Source: Candidatus Bipolaricaulota bacterium (GTDB lineage: Bacteria > Bipolaricaulota > Bipolaricaulia > RBG-16-55-9 > DRXL01). Taken from it: a stretch of DNA of 64,000 nucleotides. A model generated the notes under the pieces. The model was not told the origin of the DNA and ran no database searches. It saw only the letters and a list, made by a program, of their open reading frames with translations. Shown here piece after piece: positions 3,806 through 30,938 of this stretch (its first letter is position 1; every line of letters begins with the position of its first letter). A program made the translations under genes and the position numbers. The stretch is from contig CALLJK010000009.1 in assembly GCA_938091745.1 (NCBI GenBank), positions 158,844-222,843 on the forward strand, given 5' to 3'.

Positions 3806-3829
3806 TAAGTTCAGAGAGAGGGAGTGGCT

Positions 3830-5017
3830 GTGGATATTTTAAAGCTGCTTGCGAGTGATCGTCCGATTCGCGAGATTGTCGAGAATTTTCAGCAAGAGTT
3901 TAATAGGGCTTTGATAAGTGCGCTGGCGCGCAAGGCCGAGGAATCTCAAGACTTGCCCGTGCTCGTTCAGCGCGCGCTCGCGGGAACGGAGGGCTTCAGT
4001 TTACGAAGCTTTGCGGCACGCGGCGGCAAGCGCATCCGCCCCTTGCTCTTCTGTTGTGGGTATATGTGCGTGGGGGGAACCGATGCCCACGCGATCCTCA
4101 ATGCTTCTATTGCTGTAGAGCTGCTGCAGACGGGGTTAATTATCCACGACGACGTCATTGACCGCAGTGTCGAGCGTCGTGCCGGCCCAACTATGCATCT
4201 TCTGTGGGAAAGATACTTTCACGAGGCGCGCTATCGTGCCCGCTACCCTGGGGAACCTGAGCACTTTGGGCTTTCTATGGCGCTCCTGATGGGCGACATC
4301 GCTTCGGCCTTAGCGTACGAGATATTGGTACGCTCAGACTTTCCCACCGAGCGCAAGCTCGCAGCCGTGCGCACGTTTAGTGACGTGATCTATCGCGTTG
4401 CGTTTGGGGAGCTGCTCGACGTCGATCTGAGCATGAGGCCGCTCGACGCGCTCAGCGAAGAAGAGATTCTGAGGGTCTACGAGCTGAAGACCGCGGGCTA
4501 CACGACCGAAGGGCCGCTGCACATGGGAGCAGCCTTGGGAGGCGCTAATGCTCATCAGATAGATCTGTTGCGTGAGTATGCAGTTCCCTTAGGAGTGGCT
4601 TTTCAGATTCAGGATGATCTGTTGGGGATGTTCGGCACCCGTCAAGAGACCGGCAAGGACGAAGGCTCTGATCTTCTGGAAGCGAAGCGCACGCCGCTGG
4701 TGCTGCGGGCGTGGCAGAAGACAGCGCCCAAGGAGCGTGCACTGCTGGAGAGGGCGTTGCACGACCCCCAGCAAGCACGACGCGATCTGGAGCGCATCCG
4801 CGCACTCATTCTCTCCACCGGCGCCGCACGCCATGCCCAAGAGCTAATTGCTCACAACTTTGCCAAAGTCTACGCGAGCGTAGAGAAGATCGAGCGCGAG
4901 CTGGGGCCGACGGCGGGACGGCTCCTCCGTCAGGTCGCCCAGTACATCGAAGACCGCAGGGATTACAAGGGGGCTGTCGAATCCTATGCCAACGCTCACA
5001 CAGAATATATCCGTTGA
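3830..5017 (+). CDS. Polyprenyl (trans-isoprenyl) diphosphate synthase
   Basis: Head-to-tail all-trans prenyl chain elongation enzyme, about 395 residues. The first aspartate-rich motif is HDDVID, the second is QDDLLGMFG, followed by GKDEGSDLLEAKRTPLVL. An insertion of about 25 residues (WERYFHEARYRARYPGE region) lies after the first motif. The chain length of the product cannot be read safely. GTG 3830 is preferred because AGAGGGAG ends 6 bases before it; GTG 3824, six bases upstream, is in frame and possible. It overlaps uppS, so the pair likely supplies lipid carrier and quinone or membrane isoprenoids. Confidence 0.88.
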   Translation: MDILKLLASDRPIREIVENFQQEFNRALISALARKAEESQDLPVLVQRALAGTEGFSLRSFAARGGKRIRPLLFCCGYMCVGGTDAHAILNASIAVELLQTGLIIHDDVIDRSVERRAGPTMHLLWERYFHEARYRARYPGEPEHFGLSMALLMGDIASALAYEILVRSDFPTERKLAAVRTFSDVIYRVAFGELLDVDLSMRPLDALSEEEILRVYELKTAGYTTEGPLHMGAALGGANAHQIDLLREYAVPLGVAFQIQDDLLGMFGTRQETGKDEGSDLLEAKRTPLVLRAWQKTAPKERALLERALHDPQQARRDLERIRALILSTGAARHAQELIAHNFAKVYASVEKIERELGPTAGRLLRQVAQYIEDRRDYKGAVESYANAHTEYIR

Positions 5018-5777
5018 AGAAGGGGCGTTGCTTGCGCAGCTTGACCGCGCGCGCATGCCCACGCACATCGCGATCATCATGGACGGCAACGGCCGCTGGG
5101 CCAAGGAGCGCGGGCTGAGCGTCCAGCACGGCCACCATGCGGGCCGCCAAGCCGTCAAACGCACTATTGAAGCGTGCCTCCAGCTGGGTATCCCGTATCT
5201 GACGGTCTACGCGTTCTCCACGGAAAATTGGCGGCGCCCCGCCAGCGAAGTCAACTTCTTGATGCAGCTCTTAGAGCAAGCCATAGAAGATGAACTTGAT
5301 GAGCTGAAGCGCAATGGGGTGCGCGTGCGCGTCATCGGGCGCTTGAACGAAAAGCTTCCCCAGACGTTGATACGGAAGGTGTGTCAAGTCATTGAAGAGA
5401 CGAAGCACAATAGAAAGCTGACGTTCACCATAGCGCTCAACTACGGCGGTCGTGCAGAGATCATCGATGCGGCGCGCAAGATCGCTGTCGAAGCAGCCGC
5501 AGGGCGGCTCGACCCCCGCTCCATCACTGAAGAGAATTTTCACGAATTTCTCTACACGAACGGGACGCCCGATCCCGACTTGGTGATTCGCACTGGCGGG
5601 GAGATGCGGCTCAGCAACTTCTTGCTCTGGCAGCTCGCCTATGCAGAATTCGTCTCAACGCCGATCTACTGGCCGGATTTTGACAAGAAGGAGCTGATTC
5701 GCGCGATCTTAGAGTATCAGCGGCGCGAACGGCGCTTTGGAGGGCGCAATGGAGACTATCAAAGCGACGCGAGATGA
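4986..5777 (+). CDS. uppS: Undecaprenyl diphosphate synthase (cis-prenyltransferase)
   Basis: Makes the C55 lipid carrier for cell-wall synthesis. The N-terminal signature HIAIIMDGNGRWAKERGL contains the catalytic Asp, followed by HxxG (HGHHAG), then AFSTENWRRP and the C-terminal RTGGEMRLSNFLLWQLAYAE block. Length 263 residues fits. The start is uncertain: ATG 4986 lies inside the previous gene with a distant purine tract, while TTG 5028, in frame, has AAGAAGGGG just upstream and would give 249 residues. The 3' end overlaps the start of atpD, showing tight coupling. Confidence 0.93.
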   Translation: MPTLTQNISVEEGALLAQLDRARMPTHIAIIMDGNGRWAKERGLSVQHGHHAGRQAVKRTIEACLQLGIPYLTVYAFSTENWRRPASEVNFLMQLLEQAIEDELDELKRNGVRVRVIGRLNEKLPQTLIRKVCQVIEETKHNRKLTFTIALNYGGRAEIIDAARKIAVEAAAGRLDPRSITEENFHEFLYTNGTPDPDLVIRTGGEMRLSNFLLWQLAYAEFVSTPIYWPDFDKKELIRAILEYQRRERRFGGRNGDYQSDAR

Positions 5778-6981: not shown

Positions 6982-8931
<1,950 letters not shown>

Positions 8932-21529: not shown

Positions 21530-23047
21530 TCACAGCCCAAAGGCCGGAATGACCACGAGATAGACAAGCAGTGTGATGACGACAGCTGCTAGGATGTTCA
21601 AGACGAACCCCACACGTGCCATGTGGGAGATCGTGACGTAGCCACTCCCGAAGACAATAGCGTTCGGGGGCGTCGACACAGGTAAGATGAACGCCGCGGA
21701 GACGGCTATCGTTGCAGGGATCATGAGCAAAAATGGATGAATATGCACGGACTGGGCCGTAACTCCCAAGATGGGCACGGCAATCGTCGCCAAAGCAGTA
21801 TTCGATGCGATGCCGCTGAGAAGCCCCATCGAGAGAGCTATGATGAAAATAAGTAATGGGAGAGGGACCTGAGCGAGCTTCACCAGGCCTTGAGCAACCC
21901 AAGTGGCGAGCCCCGTCTGCTGAATCCCTTGCGCCAGGGCAAAGCCTCCTCCGAAGATGAGCAACACCCCCCATGGGATGCGTCCCGCCCACTCCCACGT
22001 CAATAAGAACTCCCCTGTTCTGAAGTTCGTTGGGATAAGGAAAAGGAGTAGTACTGCTGCTAACGCTACTGTCGCATCGCCCACGGACTCGCTCACCCCA
22101 GCGAGCGTGGCCCATCCGGGAATTCTCAGGGGCCCCAGCTGCATATCGGCGCGGAAGACCCATCCCAAGACTGCTATTGCGAAGATCGCCAGGACTCCCT
22201 TCTCTGCACGGCTCAGGGGCCCAAGCTGCTGCACCTCACGAGAGATCTCAGTAGGATCGGCTATCTCAGGGTTTCTCATGGAGACAAATGCCAAGTACGC
22301 CCAAGATATCAAGAGAAAGATCAGCACAAACGGAACTCCCACAAGCATCCATTGGAAGAAGCCGACCTCGCCTAGCTCCGGGAAGAGCATCTTCACTTGG
22401 CCGACAAAGATCGCATTAGGTGGAGTTCCGGTGATCGTCCCCACCCCGCCGATGCTCGCCGCGTAGGCGATGCTTAACATAAGAACAGCGCCGAAGCTGC
22501 TGTGGCGCTGTGACTTCTTGTCCAGAGCTGAAGGATCAAGCTTACTGATGAGGGCTAAGCTGATGGGGAAGATCATGATCGTCGTCGCGGTGTTGGAGAC
22601 CCACATGGAGATAAACGCTGTGGCGACCATAAATCCCAACAGAAGCCGTCGTGGGCTTGTCCCGACAATTGCGATAATCTGCAACGCTATGCGGTGGTGC
22701 AGCCCCCAGCGCTGCATGGCCATTGCTAAGAAGAACCCCCCCATAAAGAGAAAGATCGTGGGCTCGGCGTAGGGCGCTGCAGCTTCTTTGATAGAGAGCA
22801 CGTTGAGCAGAGGAAAGAGCACTAACGGGAGAAGTGCCGTTGCATAGAGCGAGATGGCTTCACTCACCCACCAGATGGCCATCAGTATCGCGACGACGGC
22901 GACGCGCTGGGCTGCGAGCGAGAGACCACCAAGCGGGGGCAGGAAGACCCCTATAAAAAAGATGAGCAACCCGAGCAGCAGTCCGAGCTTCTGTCGCAGG
23001 GAGTACGGACTTCCCAGCTGCTCGCCGAGCCATTTGTACGGCGTCAT
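21530..23047 (-). CDS. SLC13/DASS family sodium-anion symporter
   Basis: 505 residues with about a dozen hydrophobic segments. It carries the DASS family marks: the first SNTATTIMIFPISLAL block, TGTPPNAIFVGQ, and the second half with ASNTALATIAVPIL and LPVSTPPNAIVFGSG; the two S-N-T and T-P-P-N motifs bind sodium and the anion. Substrates are di- or tricarboxylates, sulfate or phosphate and cannot be chosen by eye. ATG 23047 is preferred over TTG 23065 because a TATACT box ends 7 bases before it, which would place the transcript start at the ATG. Confidence 0.9.
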   Translation of the reverse strand: MTPYKWLGEQLGSPYSLRQKLGLLLGLLIFFIGVFLPPLGGLSLAAQRVAVVAILMAIWWVSEAISLYATALLPLVLFPLLNVLSIKEAAAPYAEPTIFLFMGGFFLAMAMQRWGLHHRIALQIIAIVGTSPRRLLLGFMVATAFISMWVSNTATTIMIFPISLALISKLDPSALDKKSQRHSSFGAVLMLSIAYAASIGGVGTITGTPPNAIFVGQVKMLFPELGEVGFFQWMLVGVPFVLIFLLISWAYLAFVSMRNPEIADPTEISREVQQLGPLSRAEKGVLAIFAIAVLGWVFRADMQLGPLRIPGWATLAGVSESVGDATVALAAVLLLFLIPTNFRTGEFLLTWEWAGRIPWGVLLIFGGGFALAQGIQQTGLATWVAQGLVKLAQVPLPLLIFIIALSMGLLSGIASNTALATIAVPILGVTAQSVHIHPFLLMIPATIAVSAAFILPVSTPPNAIVFGSGYVTISHMARVGFVLNILAAVVITLLVYLVVIPAFGL

Positions 23048-23062
23048 GCACTCAAGTATACT
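23034..23062 (+). promoter_or_regulatory. Promoter for KhtT-like regulator gene
   Basis: TTGTAC (23034-23039), 17 bases, TATACT (23057-23062). The -10 box shares the palindrome AGTATACT (23055-23062) with the opposite-strand -10 box of the DASS transporter gene (23060-23055), so the two promoters cannot be occupied together. Confidence 0.4.
23055..23060 (-). promoter_or_regulatory. -10 box of leaderless DASS transporter transcript
   Basis: TATACT on the minus strand 7 bases before ATG 23047; no Shine-Dalgarno in between. Confidence 0.35.
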
Positions 23063-23095
23063 CAATCAAGTACGCCAAGACGAGTGAGGCATTAT

Positions 23096-23578
23096 ATGGA
23101 AGTTCGCGAAGTCGAGCTCCCTGGCATTGGGATGAAGTTCTCGTTCGAGACTGAAGAGGGTGAGACGCTATGTGTTGTCATTCACAAGACAGGCCGCCGC
23201 GAGATCTATCGCTTTCTGCCCGGACAAGAGACCCCAGAATCAGTCATTGAGTTGAGCGACAAGGAAGCCCGCGAGCTGGGCGCGATCTTGATCGGCACGC
23301 ACTTCCAACCCGATGCCCACGACACGGCCCGGCTTGTCATGAAGGAGCTCACGATTGAATGGCTCAAAGTCCCCAAAGATTCGCCGTTAGCGGGCAAATC
23401 TATCCAAGAGAATAAAATTCGTAAGCTCACCGGCGCGACGATCATCGCTGTCCTTGGGCCGACTAAGAAGATCTTGAACCCGGCCCCAGACACGATCATC
23501 GACAGTGGCGATACTGTTGTCGTCGTAGGCGAGCAGGCGCAAATCCAACAATTCCAAGAGCGCTTTGGGCTCCGCTGA
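23096..23578 (+). CDS. Cation:proton antiporter regulatory subunit with TrkA-C (RCK_C) domain, KhtT-like
   Basis: 160 residues. Residues 1-75 form a small beta-rich domain (VREVELPGIGMKFSFETEEGETLCVVIHKTG is characteristic of KhtT-like proteins); residues 76-160 are a TrkA-C domain (PLAGKSIQENKIRKLTGATIIAVL, DTIIDSGDTVVVVGEQAQIQQF). It should gate the membrane antiporter encoded 2 bases downstream, binding a nucleotide or other ligand. ATG 23096 has GAGG 6 bases upstream. Confidence 0.88.
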   Translation: MEVREVELPGIGMKFSFETEEGETLCVVIHKTGRREIYRFLPGQETPESVIELSDKEARELGAILIGTHFQPDAHDTARLVMKELTIEWLKVPKDSPLAGKSIQENKIRKLTGATIIAVLGPTKKILNPAPDTIIDSGDTVVVVGEQAQIQQFQERFGLR

Positions 23579-23580
23579 CC

Positions 23581-24678
23581 ATGCTCTTCCAGCTTGGGCT
23601 GATTTTGCTCGTACTCTATGTCGGAGCGCTCTTGGCCCATCGGATCAAACAGTCGAGCGTGCCCGTCTTTATTCTCGCGGGTGTAGGGTTGCAGCTCTTC
23701 ATCGTGCACTCTGACGTCATTGGGTTTCTCGCGCAGTTGGGTGCGATGCTCCTGCTCTTTACAATTGGGCTGGATTTTTCCCCAGAGCGCATCCGGCGCA
23801 GCGGGCGCACGCTCCTGGGAGCGACGCTCGTTGATGTTCTGATCAATCTCCCGTTAGGGGTTGTCGTGGGGCTTGCGTTGGGATTCGATCTCGTGGGAGC
23901 GCTCATCTTGGGAGGAGCGCTCTACAACAACAGCACATCGCTTATAGCGCGGTTTCTCATAGACTTCAAGCGCACGGCGTTGCCGGAGACCGAGTACGCC
24001 GTGGGAGTTTCAGTTCTCCAAGATCTTATCACGGCTCTCTATCTGGCGGTCATCGCTGGATTCCTCCATAGTGATGGGATTGGGGGGCTTGAGATTCTGC
24101 TTGTCTTTGTCAAGGCTGTGGGCTTCTTCAGCGGGGCGTTGCTCGCTGCAGTCGTGTTGCGCCCGGTGCTACAGCAGTTGCTCGCCCATGAATCTGTTGA
24201 GGTCTTTCTGTTCTTCGTGTTTGCGTTTGTCTTGGTGCTCGCGGCGATTGCCGAATGGCTGGGAGTGTCGGCAGCGATCGGGGCGTTCTTCGCGGGGTTC
24301 ATTCTGCCTGAGCGGGAGTTTCGTGAGCGCATAGATCGCGTCATCTCCCCGTTTCGCGATCTGTTCGCCGCGATCTTCTTCGTCTCGTTTGGGCTGCTCT
24401 TCGATATGACAGATATCGGTCGTGTGCTCGCTCTGAGCGTGCTCGTTATCGGTGTGGCCATAGGGGGCAAGCTCCTTACGGGGTGGGTGATCGGGCGGCT
24501 TGGGCGTCTGAGTAGACGAGCTGCTTTGCGCTTAGGGGCTGCGCTCATCCCGCGCGGCGAGTTCTCTATACTCTTAGCGGGGCTTGCTGCGCCCACGACG
24601 CCGCTTTTGCCCTTAACGATCGTGACGGTCTTTGTCTTAGCGCTTGTAGGGCCGCTCCTCATGAAATGGGCTGAATAA
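23581..24678 (+). CDS. CPA2 family cation:proton antiporter membrane subunit, KhtU-like
   Basis: 365 residues with about 12 membrane segments of the CPA2 fold: LGAMLLLFTIGLDFSPERIR, LILGGALYNNSTSLIARFL, VSVLQDLITALYLAVIAG (with the conserved QD of the ion site) and ALIPRGEFSILLAGL. It exchanges potassium or another cation for protons, under control of the TrkA-C partner just upstream (2-base spacing). No cytosolic C-terminal RCK domain is attached, consistent with a two-gene KhtTU arrangement. Confidence 0.9.
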   Translation: MLFQLGLILLVLYVGALLAHRIKQSSVPVFILAGVGLQLFIVHSDVIGFLAQLGAMLLLFTIGLDFSPERIRRSGRTLLGATLVDVLINLPLGVVVGLALGFDLVGALILGGALYNNSTSLIARFLIDFKRTALPETEYAVGVSVLQDLITALYLAVIAGFLHSDGIGGLEILLVFVKAVGFFSGALLAAVVLRPVLQQLLAHESVEVFLFFVFAFVLVLAAIAEWLGVSAAIGAFFAGFILPEREFRERIDRVISPFRDLFAAIFFVSFGLLFDMTDIGRVLALSVLVIGVAIGGKLLTGWVIGRLGRLSRRAALRLGAALIPRGEFSILLAGLAAPTTPLLPLTIVTVFVLALVGPLLMKWAE

Positions 24679-24683
24679 CCACG

Positions 24684-24689
24684 TATAAT
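24684..24689 (+). promoter_or_regulatory. -10 box of leaderless SLC13-RCK transcript
   Basis: Perfect TATAAT 7 bases before ATG 24697; no Shine-Dalgarno and no clear -35. Confidence 0.4.
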
Positions 24690-24696
24690 TCGTTTG

Positions 24697-26457
24697 ATGG
24701 CAATTCCAACGCTCTTGACGATTCTCGCGGTCGCGCTCGTGCTCTTCATCAGCGAGCGCGTGCGTGCCGATCTCGTCGCGATGCTCGTGCTGGTGGCGTT
24801 AGCCCTCACGGGTCTGTTGAGCGCACAAGAGGTCTTCAGCGGTTTTAGCAGCCCCGCGGTCATCACCGTCGGGGCGATGTTCGTGATGAGCGCCGCGGCC
24901 ACGCGCACCGGCATCGCGGCGTATCTAGGGCGCTTATTGAAAGCGCTCGCCGGCGGGCGCGAGTGGGCCTTGGTCTTCGTCATTATGCTCGCCGTCGCGA
25001 CGATCTCGGCGTTCATCAACAACGTCGGCGCTGTGGCTTTGCTCCTGCCTGTCGTGATGGAGCTGGGGCGCCAAAGCAAGATCAGTCCTTCGAAATTACT
25101 GATCCCGTTAGCGTATGGCTCGATGCTGGGAGGGGTCTGCACGCTCATCGGGACACCGCCTAATATCTTAGTGAGCACCATTGGAACTCAGCATGGGCTG
25201 CGCCCGTTTGGGCTTTTTGAATTCGCCCCTATCGGGGTTGCCCTTGTAGGCGCGGGCGTCCTCTATATGATGCTGATTGGACGCCATCTCATCCCGGCAC
25301 GCCGTACCGAAGAGATCGTAGACTCTATGCCCAAGCACTATCTGACCGAGCTGGTCATTCCTAAAGATTCTCAGCTCATCACCAAGCGCTTACACGAGCT
25401 GGGGTGGCGCGAGCGGGGGATTGAGATCCTCTCCATCCGTCGCGGCCCACGGGAGATCTTCGATATCTGGGGCTGGGCCAGCTTGCAAGCCAACGACGTT
25501 CTCGTCGTCACCGGCAAGGCCGAAGAGATCTTAAAACTGAAAGACGAGCTGGGGCTAGAGATCCGCCCCGAGGTCGAGTACACCCATCCGTGGCATCCGT
25601 CGGATACGATCCAGCGCGTGGAGGCGACGCTCGCGCCCAATGCGTCGTTTATCGGGCGCACGCTGGCCGAGCTGGATTTCCACAACCGCTACGGCGTGAC
25701 GGTACTAGCTATCGCCCGGCACGGGGCGCTGCTGCGGGGGCAGCTCGCGCAGATCCCGTTGCAATTCGGCGACACGCTCCTGCTCCAAGGGCCGGAGCAC
25801 CGTCTGGCTCAGATCCCCAAAGAGAACTTCATTCTGATGAGCCCGCTGGCGCTGCAAGCCCTGCGCACCGACAAGGCCCCCATCGCGCTTATGATCTTCG
25901 CTGGGGTGTTGGTGCTTGCGGCTTTAGGGGTGATGCACATCAGTATTGCTGGGGTGCTCGGCGCGGTGCTCATGGTGCTGACGCGCTGCCTCACCTCAGA
26001 AGAAGCTTATGAATCTATAGATTGGAAGGTGATCTTTCTCCTAGCGGGGATGATCCCCGCGGGGATCGCGTTGGAGAAGACAGGGGCCGCGCAGCTGCTT
26101 GCGGAGTTCATCGTGAAGGGCATCGGCCCGCTCGGCCCGCTGTTTGTCCTGGGGGCGCTGCTGGCGTGCACCTCGCTGATCACTGAAGTCCTCTCCAACG
26201 CCGCGACGGCGGTGCTCGTGACTCCTCTGGCGATCTCGCTGGCGGCGCAGTTGGGAGTCAGCCCCTACCCGTTTCTCATGGGCGTGGCCGTAGCAGCGTC
26301 ATCGAGCTTCATGACGCCGATCAGTCATCAATCGAACGCGATTGTCTTTGGGCCTGGGGGATATAGATTTTCAGACTATGTGCGCGCAGGGCTAGGGATG
26401 AACATCATCGCGTGGCTGGTGGCGATGCTCCTGATTCCCAGGCTCTGGCCCTTCTAG
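24697..26457 (+). CDS. SLC13-type permease with central TrkA-C domains
   Basis: 586 residues. Membrane half one (residues 1-200) has FINNVGAVALLLPVVMELG and GTPPNILVSTIG; residues about 205-375 form two TrkA-C domains (DSQLITKRLHELGWRERGIEILSI and ASFIGRTLAELDFHNRYGVTVLAI, both ending in a D-x-L/V-L-V/L strand); membrane half two has EVLSNAATAVLVTPLA and SHQSNAIVFGPGGY. This layout is the YfbS/SdcS-like permease with RCK_C domains that probably sense a ligand and gate anion uptake. Substrate not readable. Confidence 0.88.
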   Translation: MAIPTLLTILAVALVLFISERVRADLVAMLVLVALALTGLLSAQEVFSGFSSPAVITVGAMFVMSAAATRTGIAAYLGRLLKALAGGREWALVFVIMLAVATISAFINNVGAVALLLPVVMELGRQSKISPSKLLIPLAYGSMLGGVCTLIGTPPNILVSTIGTQHGLRPFGLFEFAPIGVALVGAGVLYMMLIGRHLIPARRTEEIVDSMPKHYLTELVIPKDSQLITKRLHELGWRERGIEILSIRRGPREIFDIWGWASLQANDVLVVTGKAEEILKLKDELGLEIRPEVEYTHPWHPSDTIQRVEATLAPNASFIGRTLAELDFHNRYGVTVLAIARHGALLRGQLAQIPLQFGDTLLLQGPEHRLAQIPKENFILMSPLALQALRTDKAPIALMIFAGVLVLAALGVMHISIAGVLGAVLMVLTRCLTSEEAYESIDWKVIFLLAGMIPAGIALEKTGAAQLLAEFIVKGIGPLGPLFVLGALLACTSLITEVLSNAATAVLVTPLAISLAAQLGVSPYPFLMGVAVAASSSFMTPISHQSNAIVFGPGGYRFSDYVRAGLGMNIIAWLVAMLLIPRLWPF

Positions 26458-27560
26458 GGCAGCACGCCCTCGGTGACGTAGCGCGTCAGCTCGCTGACAC
26501 TGAGACGCTCGATGCCCAGCTTGTCTAATGTGCGCCCGCGCCGCCAATAGTCCGTGCGATGGATGATACATGCCAAATGAATAATACTCTCGATGGCTCG
26601 AGTCTCTACACCGTAGCGCTTCCCCAGCGCTGCAATGGGCACCAGGCTCATGGGCACGTCTTCGAAGATATAGCGATGCTCTAAGCGACTAGGTGCCGTG
26701 ATCCCGTAATAGCCGGGGTTAGCGTGCACAGCTTCGTAGAGATTTTCGCCCTTGGCGTCGTAGGCCATCTTCAGCCATTCTATAGCCGTCATAGCGCGAA
26801 TGCCCAAAGCTGCAGCGATGGTCACGCGCTCGCGATCTAAGACTTCCAAGACCCGTGCGGTCGAGGGCGTCACGCCGTCAATATAGAACTGAAAATTCCC
26901 CTTGGTGGCCTCGATCCACCCCGCGTTGAGAATAGTTAAAGCTGGGTGGAAGATCGCGCCCATGTTATCGAGCCCCGTCTGGAGCACATTACCCCCATCT
27001 ATGAATTGGGGGTAGGCGTCATTGAGAACTTCTAAGACTTTCTGGGTGTGCGTCGCGGGCAAGGCAGCGAGGGGGACGGCGTCTTTAGTACTGAAGATGC
27101 GGGCTTGCGCCGGGCCGATGGAACGGCTGGCATAGATGAACGTCTCGGCCTCAGCGACGATCACGTCGGCCGAACAACTATTATCCCGAAGTACTTTGGC
27201 AAATTCGATAGCGCCGCACGTGCGCCCAGGGTGCAAAATCACGATTTGCTCATCTTTGAGATATGGAGCGCACGCTTGGGCGAGCTCTCTATGAGCCGAC
27301 GAGGGCACGACGACCATCACGACGTGGGCGTCGGCAAGCGCCTCTTTAAGATCGGATGTGCACTTTTCGAGCTTAGCAAAGCCGTGGGGGCCGTCGGGAA
27401 AGCTTTCGAGCTCGATGCCCTTGCGGGCTTGAATAGCCTTTATATTTTCGGGCGTGCGGTTATATAACGTGACGGGATAGCCCATGAGCGCTAAGTGAGC
27501 GGCCATTGCTTTGCCGCCATGTCCGGCACCGATCACGGTGTAATTGATGTTCTTGGGCAT
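26454..27560 (-). CDS. NAD(P)-dependent opine/octopine dehydrogenase family oxidoreductase
   Basis: 368 residues. A Rossmann domain (YTVIGAGHGGKAMAAHLALMG, residues 5-25) is followed by HPGRTCGAIEFA and the C-terminal octopine-dehydrogenase domain (DNMGAIFHPALTILNAGWIE, with the Asn-x-x-x-x-x-His pattern of the active site). Family members reductively join an amino acid and a keto acid, or oxidise 2-hydroxy acids. ATG 27560 is chosen because GAGGTG lies upstream inside the end of asnB, 8 bases away from the asnB stop. Third gene of a unit with asnB and a cobalamin mutase-like gene; the true substrate is unknown. Confidence 0.85.
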   Translation of the reverse strand: MPKNINYTVIGAGHGGKAMAAHLALMGYPVTLYNRTPENIKAIQARKGIELESFPDGPHGFAKLEKCTSDLKEALADAHVVMVVVPSSAHRELAQACAPYLKDEQIVILHPGRTCGAIEFAKVLRDNSCSADVIVAEAETFIYASRSIGPAQARIFSTKDAVPLAALPATHTQKVLEVLNDAYPQFIDGGNVLQTGLDNMGAIFHPALTILNAGWIEATKGNFQFYIDGVTPSTARVLEVLDRERVTIAAALGIRAMTAIEWLKMAYDAKGENLYEAVHANPGYYGITAPSRLEHRYIFEDVPMSLVPIAALGKRYGVETRAIESIIHLACIIHRTDYWRRGRTLDKLGIERLSVSELTRYVTEGVLP

Positions 27561-27568
27561 AGAGAGAA

Positions 27569-29074
27569 TCACCTCGCTTCGGGTCGGGGTGTCCAGCTCA
27601 GACAATGAGCGACAGAATTTGGGAAGTAGCGTCGCCAGATTCTGTAATAATACAGCTCTTCTTTGGAGCGCAGCGTGAGGGTATCTGAAAGAGCGCGCTC
27701 ACGCTCGAACTCTCTATCGGAGATCTCGCGCTCGGCGATCTGTTCGAAGACGAGAGCCGAGCCGGCTCCACGCGAGAATTTTTCTTTCTCGCGCCAGAGA
27801 ATCTCTTCGGGGAGAAAGCCCTCAAACGCCTTGCGCAGGATATACTTTTCGATCCCGTTGGAGTGCTTGAGCTGCGGGGGCAGAGCAAAAGCTACTCTCA
27901 GCAGATCCAAGTCGAGATACGGCTCGCGGCCTTCGATGCCGTGTGCCATCGTCATGCGGTCCACTCGCTGAAGATTGGAGTTATGGAGCTTGCTGGTGAT
28001 CGCGAGGAGCTCGCGATGCAGACGCGCTGCGTCGCCGATCTCTTTGAGATAGTGATAGCCGCCAAAGAGCTCGTCGGAGCCCTCGCCCACGAGCACGACC
28101 TTGACAAAGTCTTTCGCAAGCCGCGCGACAAAATAGTTGGCGATGGCGCTGCGTACCAACGCAAAATCAAAAGACTCCAAGTGATAGATCACGTCGGGTA
28201 GTATCTGGAGCATCTCGGCTTCGGGGTAGAGATACTCGTGGTGCACTGTGCCCAGATACTGAGCGACCTTTCGAGCGTAGAGGGGGTCTTGGCCCTGGGG
28301 GGTGCCTATGGAGAACGAGTGCAGCGTAGGAGTGTGCTCTTTCATCACAGCAGCGACGAGACTGCTGTCAAGACCGCCACTGAGGAAGACCCCGACCGGC
28401 ACGTCTGAGATAAGCCGTTTTTCAACGGCTGCGATGAAGCAATCTCGCAGCGTCCCTTCGGGGTTTTTGAGCTCGCTTGAGGCTGCTGCTTCAACCCACT
28501 GCGCGAGATCGAAATAGCGCTTCCACCCAAGCTTACTATGGAACCAATGGCCAGGCGGGAACTCTACAATATCTGTAGTGATCGGCAACAGTGCTTTTAT
28601 CTCCGAAGCGAAGTAGAGCTGCCCATGAGCGAGTGCATAATAGAGGGGTTTCACGCCCAAGGGGTCACGGGCGAGAAAGAGATCGTCGCCGTCTATGAGC
28701 GCAAACGCGAACATCCCATCGAAGAGTTTTACACACTCCGGGCCGTGTTCTTCGTAGCTGTGCACGACGACTTCCGTGTCGGTGCGCGTGCACAGCTGGT
28801 GGCGGTGCGCGAGCTGGGAGCGCAGCTTGGGAAAGTTATAGATCTCGCCATTGTAGACGATATGGATCGAGCCGTCTTCGTTGGCGATAGGTTGATGCCC
28901 GCCGGGCACGTCAATAATAGAGAGCCGTGTGTGCCCTAAAGCAGCTCGCTCGTTCCGCCAAACGCCAGAATCGTCCGGCCCGCGATGGCTCAGTCTCTCC
29001 AGCATCGTCGCGACGAAGATCTGTGCGGGAGAAGCTCCCCGTTCGAGCGCAAAGCACCCAGCAATGCCGCACAT
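27569..29074 (-). CDS. asnB: Asparagine synthetase (glutamine-hydrolysing) family protein
   Basis: 501 residues, shorter than the usual 550-630. The N-terminal class II amidotransferase starts MCGIAGCFALE with Cys2 as nucleophile and has RLSIIDVPGGHQPI and VYNGEIYNF. The synthetase domain has the PP-loop VFLSGGLDSSLVAAVMKEH, GEGSDELFGGYHY and HGIEGREPYLD. It would amidate aspartate or another carboxylate by way of an adenylate. It sits 9 bases after a cobalamin mutase-like gene and 8 bases before an opine dehydrogenase-like gene, so a specialised substrate is possible. Confidence 0.92.
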   Translation of the reverse strand: MCGIAGCFALERGASPAQIFVATMLERLSHRGPDDSGVWRNERAALGHTRLSIIDVPGGHQPIANEDGSIHIVYNGEIYNFPKLRSQLAHRHQLCTRTDTEVVVHSYEEHGPECVKLFDGMFAFALIDGDDLFLARDPLGVKPLYYALAHGQLYFASEIKALLPITTDIVEFPPGHWFHSKLGWKRYFDLAQWVEAAASSELKNPEGTLRDCFIAAVEKRLISDVPVGVFLSGGLDSSLVAAVMKEHTPTLHSFSIGTPQGQDPLYARKVAQYLGTVHHEYLYPEAEMLQILPDVIYHLESFDFALVRSAIANYFVARLAKDFVKVVLVGEGSDELFGGYHYLKEIGDAARLHRELLAITSKLHNSNLQRVDRMTMAHGIEGREPYLDLDLLRVAFALPPQLKHSNGIEKYILRKAFEGFLPEEILWREKEKFSRGAGSALVFEQIAEREISDREFERERALSDTLTLRSKEELYYYRIWRRYFPNSVAHCLSWTPRPEAR

Positions 29075-29083
29075 AGCGCCTCC

Positions 29084-30721
29084 TTAGACTGAGATGCCCA
29101 GCCGCGCCAGGCGCTCAGCTTCGCTTATGGGCTTGCCCGTCTGAGGGTCTACTCCTACGCACATGCCGTCAATGATTCTCGTGACGATCTGCCCCTTGGC
29201 GATGGGACTGCCCTTCAGGTGCGGCGCATCGAGAATCCCCACAGTAACAGCCCGCGCCAGCGTCGTCGGATCGGCCCACGGATCAGAGATATTCGGCCCG
29301 GCAAGCTTTGTGATCGCTTCAAGAGTGATGCGCGCCTCGCGGACAAGCTCGTCCCTGCGGCGTTGCACGAGAGGGTCAGCCGTCATATCTGGGGCACCGC
29401 GCAGGGCGTTCTCAATGGCGCGACGCGCGATCTTAACGCTCTCGATCAGCTCTTTTGCTGTTGTGGCGTGATGAGCTTCCGTTGCCCCAACAACGTGCAC
29501 GATATGGGGCTTGATTGCCATTTGCAAATAGACAGACGCTGCCAGATGCCCCCGCGCGGCGTCGGGATCAACGGGGTAACTTAAAAGCCCTGTGCGTGCC
29601 TGACGATAGACCCGAAAGTTCTCATCAGCGAGCGTTTCTGATAGCTCGATGCACGCTAAGATTTTTGCTAAATCCATGCGGTCCGACAGCCCCGCGGGGC
29701 TGTTGAACATATACTGGGCGATATAGTCTTTGACGCCCATCGCCTTAGCGTTGTAGGCTGACAGGAAGCTCGTGACGACGTAGATGACATCGGGGGCATC
29801 GCGCATCCCCCAGTGATGCGGTTCGTTGACCTCCACGGGGATATTGCGCTCGCCGTGCCAGCGCATCAGCTCCTGATGGACGCGAATAGATTCTTCTAAG
29901 CCCAGCGGGCCGCGACGATCGAGCTGATTGAACCAGAAGATCGAAGTGGCGCACCAGGCGTTGTGGAACGTCTCGACGTAGAGCTGAGCGAGCTTGAGCT
30001 GATCGTCGGTGCCCGAGTACGCGCGCATCAACGGGTAGTTCCCGCATCGGCTTGCTTGATACAGCGCGCGGTACTCTTCAGCCGTGCGCACGGGGACGCC
30101 GCCGGCGCCCTTGCGCCGCGGGTCTTGCCGCTCAGGGTGAAAGAAGTTCTCTTGGGCGTCTTGGTCAATGCCCAGAGAGATCACGTCGAGCACGCGGGCT
30201 TGCGCGACCTCGCGAATCCCTTCAATCGTCTCTTCGATCGTTGGGCGCCCATAATGATGGCGAATCAACGGGAATGGCTTCTTCCACATAAGACGTTCTG
30301 CGAACGTCTGGGGAAAATCTTTCTCGGTCGTGCCCTGCCACAGCTCGCCCCTCAGATACGCGATGACCTCTTCGACGGGTTCTTCGCCGGAGAAGCAGCG
30401 CTCGAAGAATTCCAACTTGCGGGCGCGCTCCACAAGCGGTGGCGTCCCGCCAAAGACGAAGCGTCGCTTCTCCAAGCCGGCTTGCCGCACAGATTCTATA
30501 AATCTCTTGAGCAATGCTTCTCCCGTTTCGGGAGTGAGTCTGTAGCTGACCGCGACCAGGTCGGGGTTATGCTGACGGATGCTTTCGAGAAAGTGTGCGA
30601 TGGGGACGGCCGGGCCAAGATAGACCGTGCGCCAGCCGACTTCTTCGGCCAAGCGCAAGAAGCTCGCAACGCCCGCGACGTGGGCGTCCTCACCCAAGGC
30701 ACCAGCGAGTACCGTGCGCAT
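29084..30721 (-). CDS. Cobalamin-binding, mutase-like TIM-barrel protein
   Basis: 545 residues. Residues 1-130 are a B12-binding domain: LAGALGEDAHVAGVASFLRL contains the DxHxxG motif whose His binds cobalt, followed by VSYRLTPETG and FGGTPP. Residues about 150-450 look like a mutase barrel (VISLGIDQDAQENFF, CGNYPLMRAYSGTDDQLKLA, IPVEVNEPHHWGMRDAPD, GATEAHHATTAKELIESV). The order is B12 domain first, barrel second, the reverse of methylmalonyl-CoA mutase. Exact reaction unknown. ATG 30721 has GGGAGGTG upstream. It heads a unit with asnB and an opine dehydrogenase-like gene. Confidence 0.75.
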   Translation of the reverse strand: MRTVLAGALGEDAHVAGVASFLRLAEEVGWRTVYLGPAVPIAHFLESIRQHNPDLVAVSYRLTPETGEALLKRFIESVRQAGLEKRRFVFGGTPPLVERARKLEFFERCFSGEEPVEEVIAYLRGELWQGTTEKDFPQTFAERLMWKKPFPLIRHHYGRPTIEETIEGIREVAQARVLDVISLGIDQDAQENFFHPERQDPRRKGAGGVPVRTAEEYRALYQASRCGNYPLMRAYSGTDDQLKLAQLYVETFHNAWCATSIFWFNQLDRRGPLGLEESIRVHQELMRWHGERNIPVEVNEPHHWGMRDAPDVIYVVTSFLSAYNAKAMGVKDYIAQYMFNSPAGLSDRMDLAKILACIELSETLADENFRVYRQARTGLLSYPVDPDAARGHLAASVYLQMAIKPHIVHVVGATEAHHATTAKELIESVKIARRAIENALRGAPDMTADPLVQRRRDELVREARITLEAITKLAGPNISDPWADPTTLARAVTVGILDAPHLKGSPIAKGQIVTRIIDGMCVGVDPQTGKPISEAERLARLGISV

Positions 30722-30741
30722 AGACAAGCACCTCCCAAGGG

Positions 30742-30783: not shown

Positions 30784-30864
30784 ATAATTGAGAAACTGTC
30801 TCGTGGCCTGGAGGGCCGCCATCACCGAAGAGAGGACTTCCCCATTAGGGGCGGGCAAAAACTG

Positions 30865-30938
30865 TCGGGATGGCGGGATTTGAACCCGCGACCCCACGCA
30901 CCCCAAGCGTGTGCGCTACCAGGCTGCGCCACATCCCG
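30865..30938 (-). tRNA. tRNA-Pro (anticodon GGG)
   Basis: 74 bases. Acceptor arms CGGGATG and CATCCCG pair perfectly, discriminator A at 30865. The anticodon stem CACGC/GCGTG encloses the loop TTGGGGT, giving anticodon GGG at 30902-30904, which reads CCC and CCU. The T arm GCGGG-TTCAAAT-CCCGC is standard. CCA is not encoded; a run of five T follows four bases after the 3' end on the minus strand and may end the transcript. Confidence 0.96.

Follow-up and report, generated by a model that had tools for sequence, protein, structure and literature searches.

The locus raises the question of whether a cobalamin-binding mutase, an amidotransferase and an opine dehydrogenase, encoded side by side, can serve one pathway. 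The genes lie in a stretch of 64,000 nucleotides (hereafter the window) from a heat-loving, uncultured bacterium of the Bipolaricaulota, and form three adjoining open reading frames on the minus strand, designated here MUT, AsnB and ODH (Table 1). The MUT reading frame has 547 residues; the most likely start is ATG 30721, which is favoured by the relatives and gives 545 residues. The longer ODH reading frame spans nt 26454–27605, and its true start is most likely ATG 27560, judging from relatives that begin with MPKN, for a protein of 368 residues. With this start, 9 and 8 bases separate the genes, in line with the count in the initial annotation, which had also placed the B12 domain of the first gene ahead of the barrel. 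Pfam agrees on the latter point, with a B12-binding domain (PF02310) at the N-terminus of MUT. It assigns PF00733 and GATase_7 to AsnB and Octopine_DH to ODH. AsnB and ODH each have a good Shine-Dalgarno sequence ahead of them (AAGGAGG and GAGGTGA, respectively). The dN/dS ratio between species is 0.06–0.13 for MUT, AsnB and ODH, indicating purifying selection on all three. The tRNA-Pro(GGG) gene upstream of MUT is kept in all four Bipolaricaulota loci examined; it is a border marker of the unit and not a member of the pathway.

Table 1. Genes of the unit and its border in the window
Feature	Position	Strand	Remarks
MUT, single-chain glutamate-mutase-like B12-binding protein	29084..30727	-	N-terminal Rossmann B12 domain, C-terminal TIM barrel
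AsnB-like amidotransferase, 501 aa	27569..29074	-	Cys2 glutaminase intact; A305-L306-V307-R308 replaces T-T-I-R
ODH, opine dehydrogenase PF02317	26454..27560	-	R113/G201, R35 (NADPH), H205/D301 dyad
tRNA-Pro(GGG)	30864..30938	-	directly upstream of MUT

Scanning 84,980 species genomes for relatives of MUT yielded 284, and the best 80 were retained as loci. Nearly all of these best 80 are from Chloroflexota, with two from Bipolaricaulota and one from Verrucomicrobiia. An ODH gene adjoins MUT on the same strand in every retained locus (80/80), showing that the linkage is not due to chance. MUT is the first gene in 78 loci and ODH in the other two (L050 and L062). Among 151 Chloroflexota genomes drawn evenly, the 10 genomes that carry MUT are exactly the 10 that carry a close ODH. 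The close ODHs display 64–74% identity, and the next full-length ODHs reach at most 38%. By hand calculation, random coincidence would produce such a 10/10 overlap about once in 10^15, although the real odds are less extreme, since the genomes are related. The pair is also kept in the distant homologues L098, L099 and L100 (35–44% identity) and in L147. A mirror-tree comparison of MUT with ODH gave a positive but modest correlation (r 0.38), and none of 999 permutations was as high. The adjacency, the co-occurrence and the distant homologues together demonstrate that MUT-ODH is a conserved functional module. MUT was found in 9 of 100 Bipolaricaulota genomes searched. The distribution of the pair is patchy, suggestive of horizontal transfer or repeated loss.

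Several loci depart from the simple arrangement. In L003, from a draft genome, the MUT gene (nt 3827–5578) is interrupted by a frameshift or an in-frame TGA, the result of either faulty assembly or gene decay. The ODH of L100 (nt 4163–5740) is fused behind a PTS EIIA_2 domain, and the mutase and an alpha-oxoamine-synthase-like gene are in the same run. No ODH fusion is claimed for L147, where the long reading frame crosses a masked stretch and holds no further domain.

The initial annotation had proposed a unit of three genes. The conserved part of it is the MUT-ODH pair, and AsnB turns out to be only an accessory. AsnB alone is situated between MUT and ODH in three loci (L003, L004 and L010), and together with a D-glutamate-cyclase-like gene in a fourth (L007). 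It is near, yet not between, in about 14 further loci, and in most loci none was seen within the fetched stretch. The core unit is MUT plus ODH; AsnB may or may not join it as a third member, and the trio is a lineage-specific form. A literature search for mutase and opine, covering few subscription journals, found no paper joining these activities. The earlier idea of an undescribed small biosynthetic system is supported; the unit is a real, widespread two-enzyme module with an accessory amidotransferase, and apparently undescribed.

MUT, AsnB and ODH were assigned to their families on the basis of profile matches, structural evidence and the residues at the sites. The predicted structure of MUT has a mean pLDDT of 88. 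A Foldseek search with this model returned glutamate mutase E as the best match (E 4e-16), followed by ornithine 4,5-aminomutase and lysine 5,6-aminomutase. A profile-profile comparison of MUT with eight true GlmE proteins was also positive (P 96.7%, E 4e-10, 415 columns). The barrel is thus homologous to Met_asp_mut_E (PF06368) by profile comparison, though its Pfam score of 23.8 bits is below the cut-off of 26.6. Methylmalonyl-CoA and isobutyryl-CoA mutases were considered and rejected, for their structural match over the barrel is far weaker.

MUT carries the base-off/His-on B12 motif, D12-x-H14-x-x-G17 (DAHVAG, around nt 30670–30690), in addition to the barrel fold, and both features are those of the AdoCbl-dependent mutase superfamily. 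The His and Gly are invariant in the family. The motif reads Cys-x-His-x-x-Gly in 77 of the 80 readable MUTs, and Asp-x-His-x-x-Gly in those of the window, L004 and L010. In nearly all Chloroflexota MUTs, the Co-His-Asp triad would be altered by this Cys, which takes the place of the usual Asp. The mutases of L098 and L099 are MUT-MutL fusions, and a gene for the adenosyltransferase CobO lies next door (assigned in L099 by similarity to L098). The run of genes that holds the fusion, the adjoining ODH, a D-glutamate-cyclase-like gene, CobO and dipeptide-type ABC transporter genes spans nt 5358–11822 in L098 and nt 7292–13753 in L099. The bacterium of the window encodes CobO as well; no MutL reactivator was found in its genome, which is 91.5% complete. 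Considering the glutamate-mutase fold, and the MutL fusion and adenosyltransferase of the distant relatives, MUT is very probably AdoCbl-dependent.

Whether MUT can accommodate glutamate is a separate question. In glutamate mutase, contacts are made by an arginine claw (R66, R100 and R149), E171 and Y177 (PMC10947579). In the profile alignment with the eight true GlmE proteins, the claw residues R66, R100 and R149 correspond to H156, Q190 and Y235 of MUT, E171 to A258, Y177 to F264, and Y181 to D268. K326 and E330, which also have roles in glutamate mutase, correspond to V411 and E415. The numbering of the GlmE residues was checked by a constant offset of 3 in L118. R154 and R233 of MUT, both invariant, are found two residues ahead of the positions of R66 and R149, respectively, which would allow for a displaced claw. 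The other invariant arginines are R270, R307 and R376, and A258 is invariant too. Because the glutamate-binding residues are replaced, MUT is not an ordinary glutamate mutase; by its aligned residues and modelled fold it is a glutamate-mutase-like protein with a rebuilt substrate site. Nor does MUT belong with the housekeeping glutamate, isobutyryl-CoA and methylmalonyl-CoA mutases, against which the initial annotation had suggested comparing it: its fold is nearest to that of glutamate mutase, but its substrate residues differ.

The comparison with GlmES, the methylaspartate mutase of Clostridium cochlearium, shows how far the likeness extends. GlmES and MUT share the TIM barrel, the Rossmann B12 domain with its His ligand, and E330 (E415 of MUT); GlmES is the best Foldseek and profile match, and distant members of the MUT family are fused to MutL. 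In contrast, MUT unites the two subunits in a single chain that begins with the B12 domain, the identity is only 17%, and R66, R100, R149, E171, Y177 and K326 are all replaced. The partner of GlmES is methylaspartate ammonia-lyase, whereas that of MUT is always ODH. The modelled structure, with glutamate mutase E as its best match, is what would speak for MUT being the true glutamate mutase of the methylaspartate fermentation pathway. The changed active-site residues led us to reject that assignment, and we hold it to be highly improbable. Moreover, one MUT-bearing genome (G045) has a separate, classical GlmE elsewhere, next to a MutL-like gene and a gene which, from reading its sequence, we take to be methylaspartate-ammonia-lyase-like.

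The window ODH exhibits 39% identity to the opine dehydrogenase of Arthrobacter (ArODH). Six hot-spring metagenomic ODHs (mODHs), about 40% identical to the same enzyme, prefer L-aspartate and L-glutamate, their best canonical substrates, with pyruvate (Telek et al. 2024, PMC10787698). It was also reported that Arg 111 and Gly 198 (Arthrobacter numbering) switch the specificity to L-Asp, and that Arg at position 35 is a sign of NADPH acceptance (PMC10787698). The window ODH, compared through this published description, has the same Arg/Gly pair (R113 and G201, equivalent to ArODH 111 and 198) and R35. R113 and G201 are invariant in the MUT-linked ODHs (81/81), and the two do not occur together in any of 15 readable unlinked ODHs from Chloroflexota genomes without MUT, a count that leaves out L170 and L173. 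Thus the acidic-amino-acid signature travels with the mutase. For the catalytic dyad, H205 is present in 81/81 MUT-linked ODHs and D301 in 78, with Glu in the remaining 3. From the signature, acidic amino acids and pyruvate are the predicted substrates of the window ODH, which agrees with the earlier suggestion that the dehydrogenase couples an amino acid with a keto acid.

The mODHs were described as isolated biocatalysts, without genomic context or physiological role, whereas the window ODH is linked to MUT. For one of them, mODH-582, the K_M for L-Asp is about 25 mM and kcat/K_M is 0.04 (PMC10787698). Such a poor K_M suggests that aspartate is a stand-in for the true substrate, which is probably an amino acid related to aspartate. 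The product of the glutamate-mutase-like enzyme would be an obvious candidate.

The most likely explanation is a three-step scheme in which the unit turns an acidic amino acid and pyruvate into an opine, namely an N-(1-carboxyethyl) amino acid; we give it even odds. In the first step, MUT with AdoCbl would carry out a 1,2-rearrangement that interconverts glutamate-like and methylaspartate-like dicarboxylic amino acids. In the second, for which the signature and the tested homologues argue, ODH would join the acidic amino acid to pyruvate with NADPH to yield a tricarboxylic opine. In the third, which is optional in other lineages, AsnB would amidate one carboxylate with ammonia taken from glutamine, so that an amidated opine results. 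The scheme keeps the general idea of the initial annotation, a mutase followed by amidation and a dehydrogenase, although the trio comes down to a pair with an accessory gene. The absence of AsnB from most Chloroflexota loci stands against the full scheme, as does the search of the bacterium's own genome that found no MutL, and the replacement of the claw and E171 makes step 1 on free glutamate doubtful.

The order of the first two steps could also be reversed. ODH would then join Asp or Glu to pyruvate first, and MUT would rearrange the finished opine in a new AdoCbl reaction, for instance from N-carboxyethyl-glutamate to N-carboxyethyl-3-methylaspartate. ODHs with the R113/G201-type signature do take Asp and Glu directly (PMC10787698). 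The amine-contacting E171 is the invariant A258 in MUT, which leaves room for an N-substituent, and the invariant R154, R233, R270, R307 and R376 could hold a third carboxylate. On the other hand, the poor K_M for Asp suggests that ODH awaits another amino acid, and MUT comes first in 78/80 loci, although gene order is weak evidence. We know of no AdoCbl mutase that acts on an N-substituted amino acid. The reversed order is accordingly rated as rather unlikely.

The reactions of ODHs are reversible, and the pair may be read as catabolic, with ODH oxidizing an imported opine to an amino acid and pyruvate and MUT feeding the amino acid to central metabolism. L098 and L099 probably represent such a version of the module. 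Both have dipeptide-type ABC transporter genes and a GntR-type regulator, which we assigned by reading the sequences, together with a D-glutamate-cyclase-like gene, and L099 also has an AAT-family gene. No such transporter is present in the operon of the window or in most Chloroflexota units. The ATP-using ligases (AsnB or ATP-grasp) in some units indicate synthesis rather than catabolism, and the catabolic reading does not fit the ligase-bearing loci; for the module in general it is improbable.

The closest solved relative of the window AsnB is E. coli AsnB. The protein shares with the E. coli and human asparagine synthetases (AsnB and ASNS) the Ntn glutaminase Cys2, the synthetase core, the SGGLDSS loop and the catalytic Glu and Lys. 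Its score against the NCBIfam equivalog model for AsnB is 584 bits, above the cut-off of 499. Its sequence is much closer to AsnB than to beta-lactam synthetase/CarA (353 vs 92 bits), and Cys2, the residue lost in the latter, is kept. It differs from AsnB/ASNS in length (501 vs 553 residues), in its linkage to MUT-ODH and in the replacement of Thr322/Thr323 by Ala/Leu. Binding of aspartate and ATP has been attributed to the Thr-Thr-x-Arg site (PMC5775275). Only the Arg of this site is kept in the window AsnB (A305-L306-V307-R308), and Leu306, Val307 and Arg308 are invariant across 13 aligned AsnBs. On these residues aspartate is probably not the substrate, as the initial annotation had suspected.

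The equivalog score, the intact glutaminase and the finding of no second AsnB in the genome of the bacterium would suit an ordinary asparagine synthetase merely sited between the genes of another pathway. We regard this as unlikely, in view of the Ala-Leu in place of the aspartate-contacting Thr-Thr and the invariance of Leu306 in the 13 aligned proteins. A close AsnB occurs in Bipolaricaulota only in the four MUT-bearing members of the family; six sister genomes, some of them incomplete, have neither gene, and the majority of the family relatives lack such an AsnB. A housekeeping role is weakened by this absence from the sister genomes as well as by the changed aspartate site. AsnBs and Cys-less AsnB-like ligases also recur beside MUT-ODH in Chloroflexota.

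The latter proteins, which are neighbours of the module in L007, L027, L070, L071, L073 and L080, have lost Cys2 and the glutamine-binding segment. Those beside or near MUT-ODH are possibly ammonia- or amine-dependent amide synthetases. Cys-less AsnB-like genes occur without MUT in genomes G028 and G042, so this branch is found outside the module as well. A D-Ala-D-Ala-ligase-like ATP-grasp gene adjoins the module or lies near it in seven loci.

Two known systems bear a partial likeness to the module. The N-acetylglutaminylglutamine amide osmolyte genes include an AsnB-like amidotransferase acting on a small acidic molecule, and an ATP-grasp ligase is near in some MUT-ODH loci. However, the N-acetylglutaminylglutamine amidotransferase model scores the window AsnB well below its cut-off (296 vs 570 bits), and to our knowledge that system has no B12 mutase and no ODH. 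In the synthesis of staphylopine-type opine metallophores, an opine dehydrogenase likewise performs the joining step. The dehydrogenase of the staphylopine route is of another family and works with a nicotianamine-synthase-like partner, and no nicotianamine-synthase-like gene was seen in the MUT-ODH loci.

Ion-transport genes near the module include NhaA (L068, L076), Na/Ca exchangers (L027, L028, L041, L068) and CLC (L081), and CitMHS is near in the window and several other loci. Single ion-transport assignments outside the Pfam scan were made by reading the sequence and are presumptive, as are an MscS-like and a trehalose-phosphate-synthase-like gene near MUT in L101. The near-neighbour list (n=144) contains CitMHS 5 times, the Na/Ca exchanger 4 times and ArsB 4 times, in overlapping sets. 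The far-neighbour control (n=137), which includes some cluster genes, contains CitMHS twice and no exchanger in the top 25. With such a control and such small numbers, the excess of ion transport is only suggestive of an osmotic role, and a compatible-solute role of the product would be a weakly supported guess.

Other membrane proteins were noted around the module. Two SLC13/citrate-type transporters and a CPA2-type antiporter lie near the trio in the window (nt 21530–26457), and a transporter like that of the window adjoins MUT-ODH in L004 and L102. A DUF5698/DUF2179 membrane protein repeatedly adjoins the module, in 18 loci including L016, L019, L020, L031, L070 and L074.

The furthest-reaching form of the proposal is that thermophilic Chloroflexota and Bipolaricaulota accumulate an amidated opine, perhaps as a compatible solute, with MUT as the first B12 radical mutase to rearrange an opine; we think it improbable that all of this holds. 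With the MUT-ODH module, the orphan thermostable ODHs of hot springs gain their first likely genomic partner, as well as a physiological substrate that can be tested. The module further brings to light a widespread subfamily of single-chain B12 mutases in which the glutamate site is rebuilt, so that the reaction is probably new. If the proposed pathway is true, bacteria would have a further route to opines, one that depends on B12, and at least three of the Chloroflexota concerned are in culture and open to direct analysis; Anaerolinea thermolimosa, Bellilinea caldifistulae and Ornatilinea apprima are among the cultured species that carry the pair.
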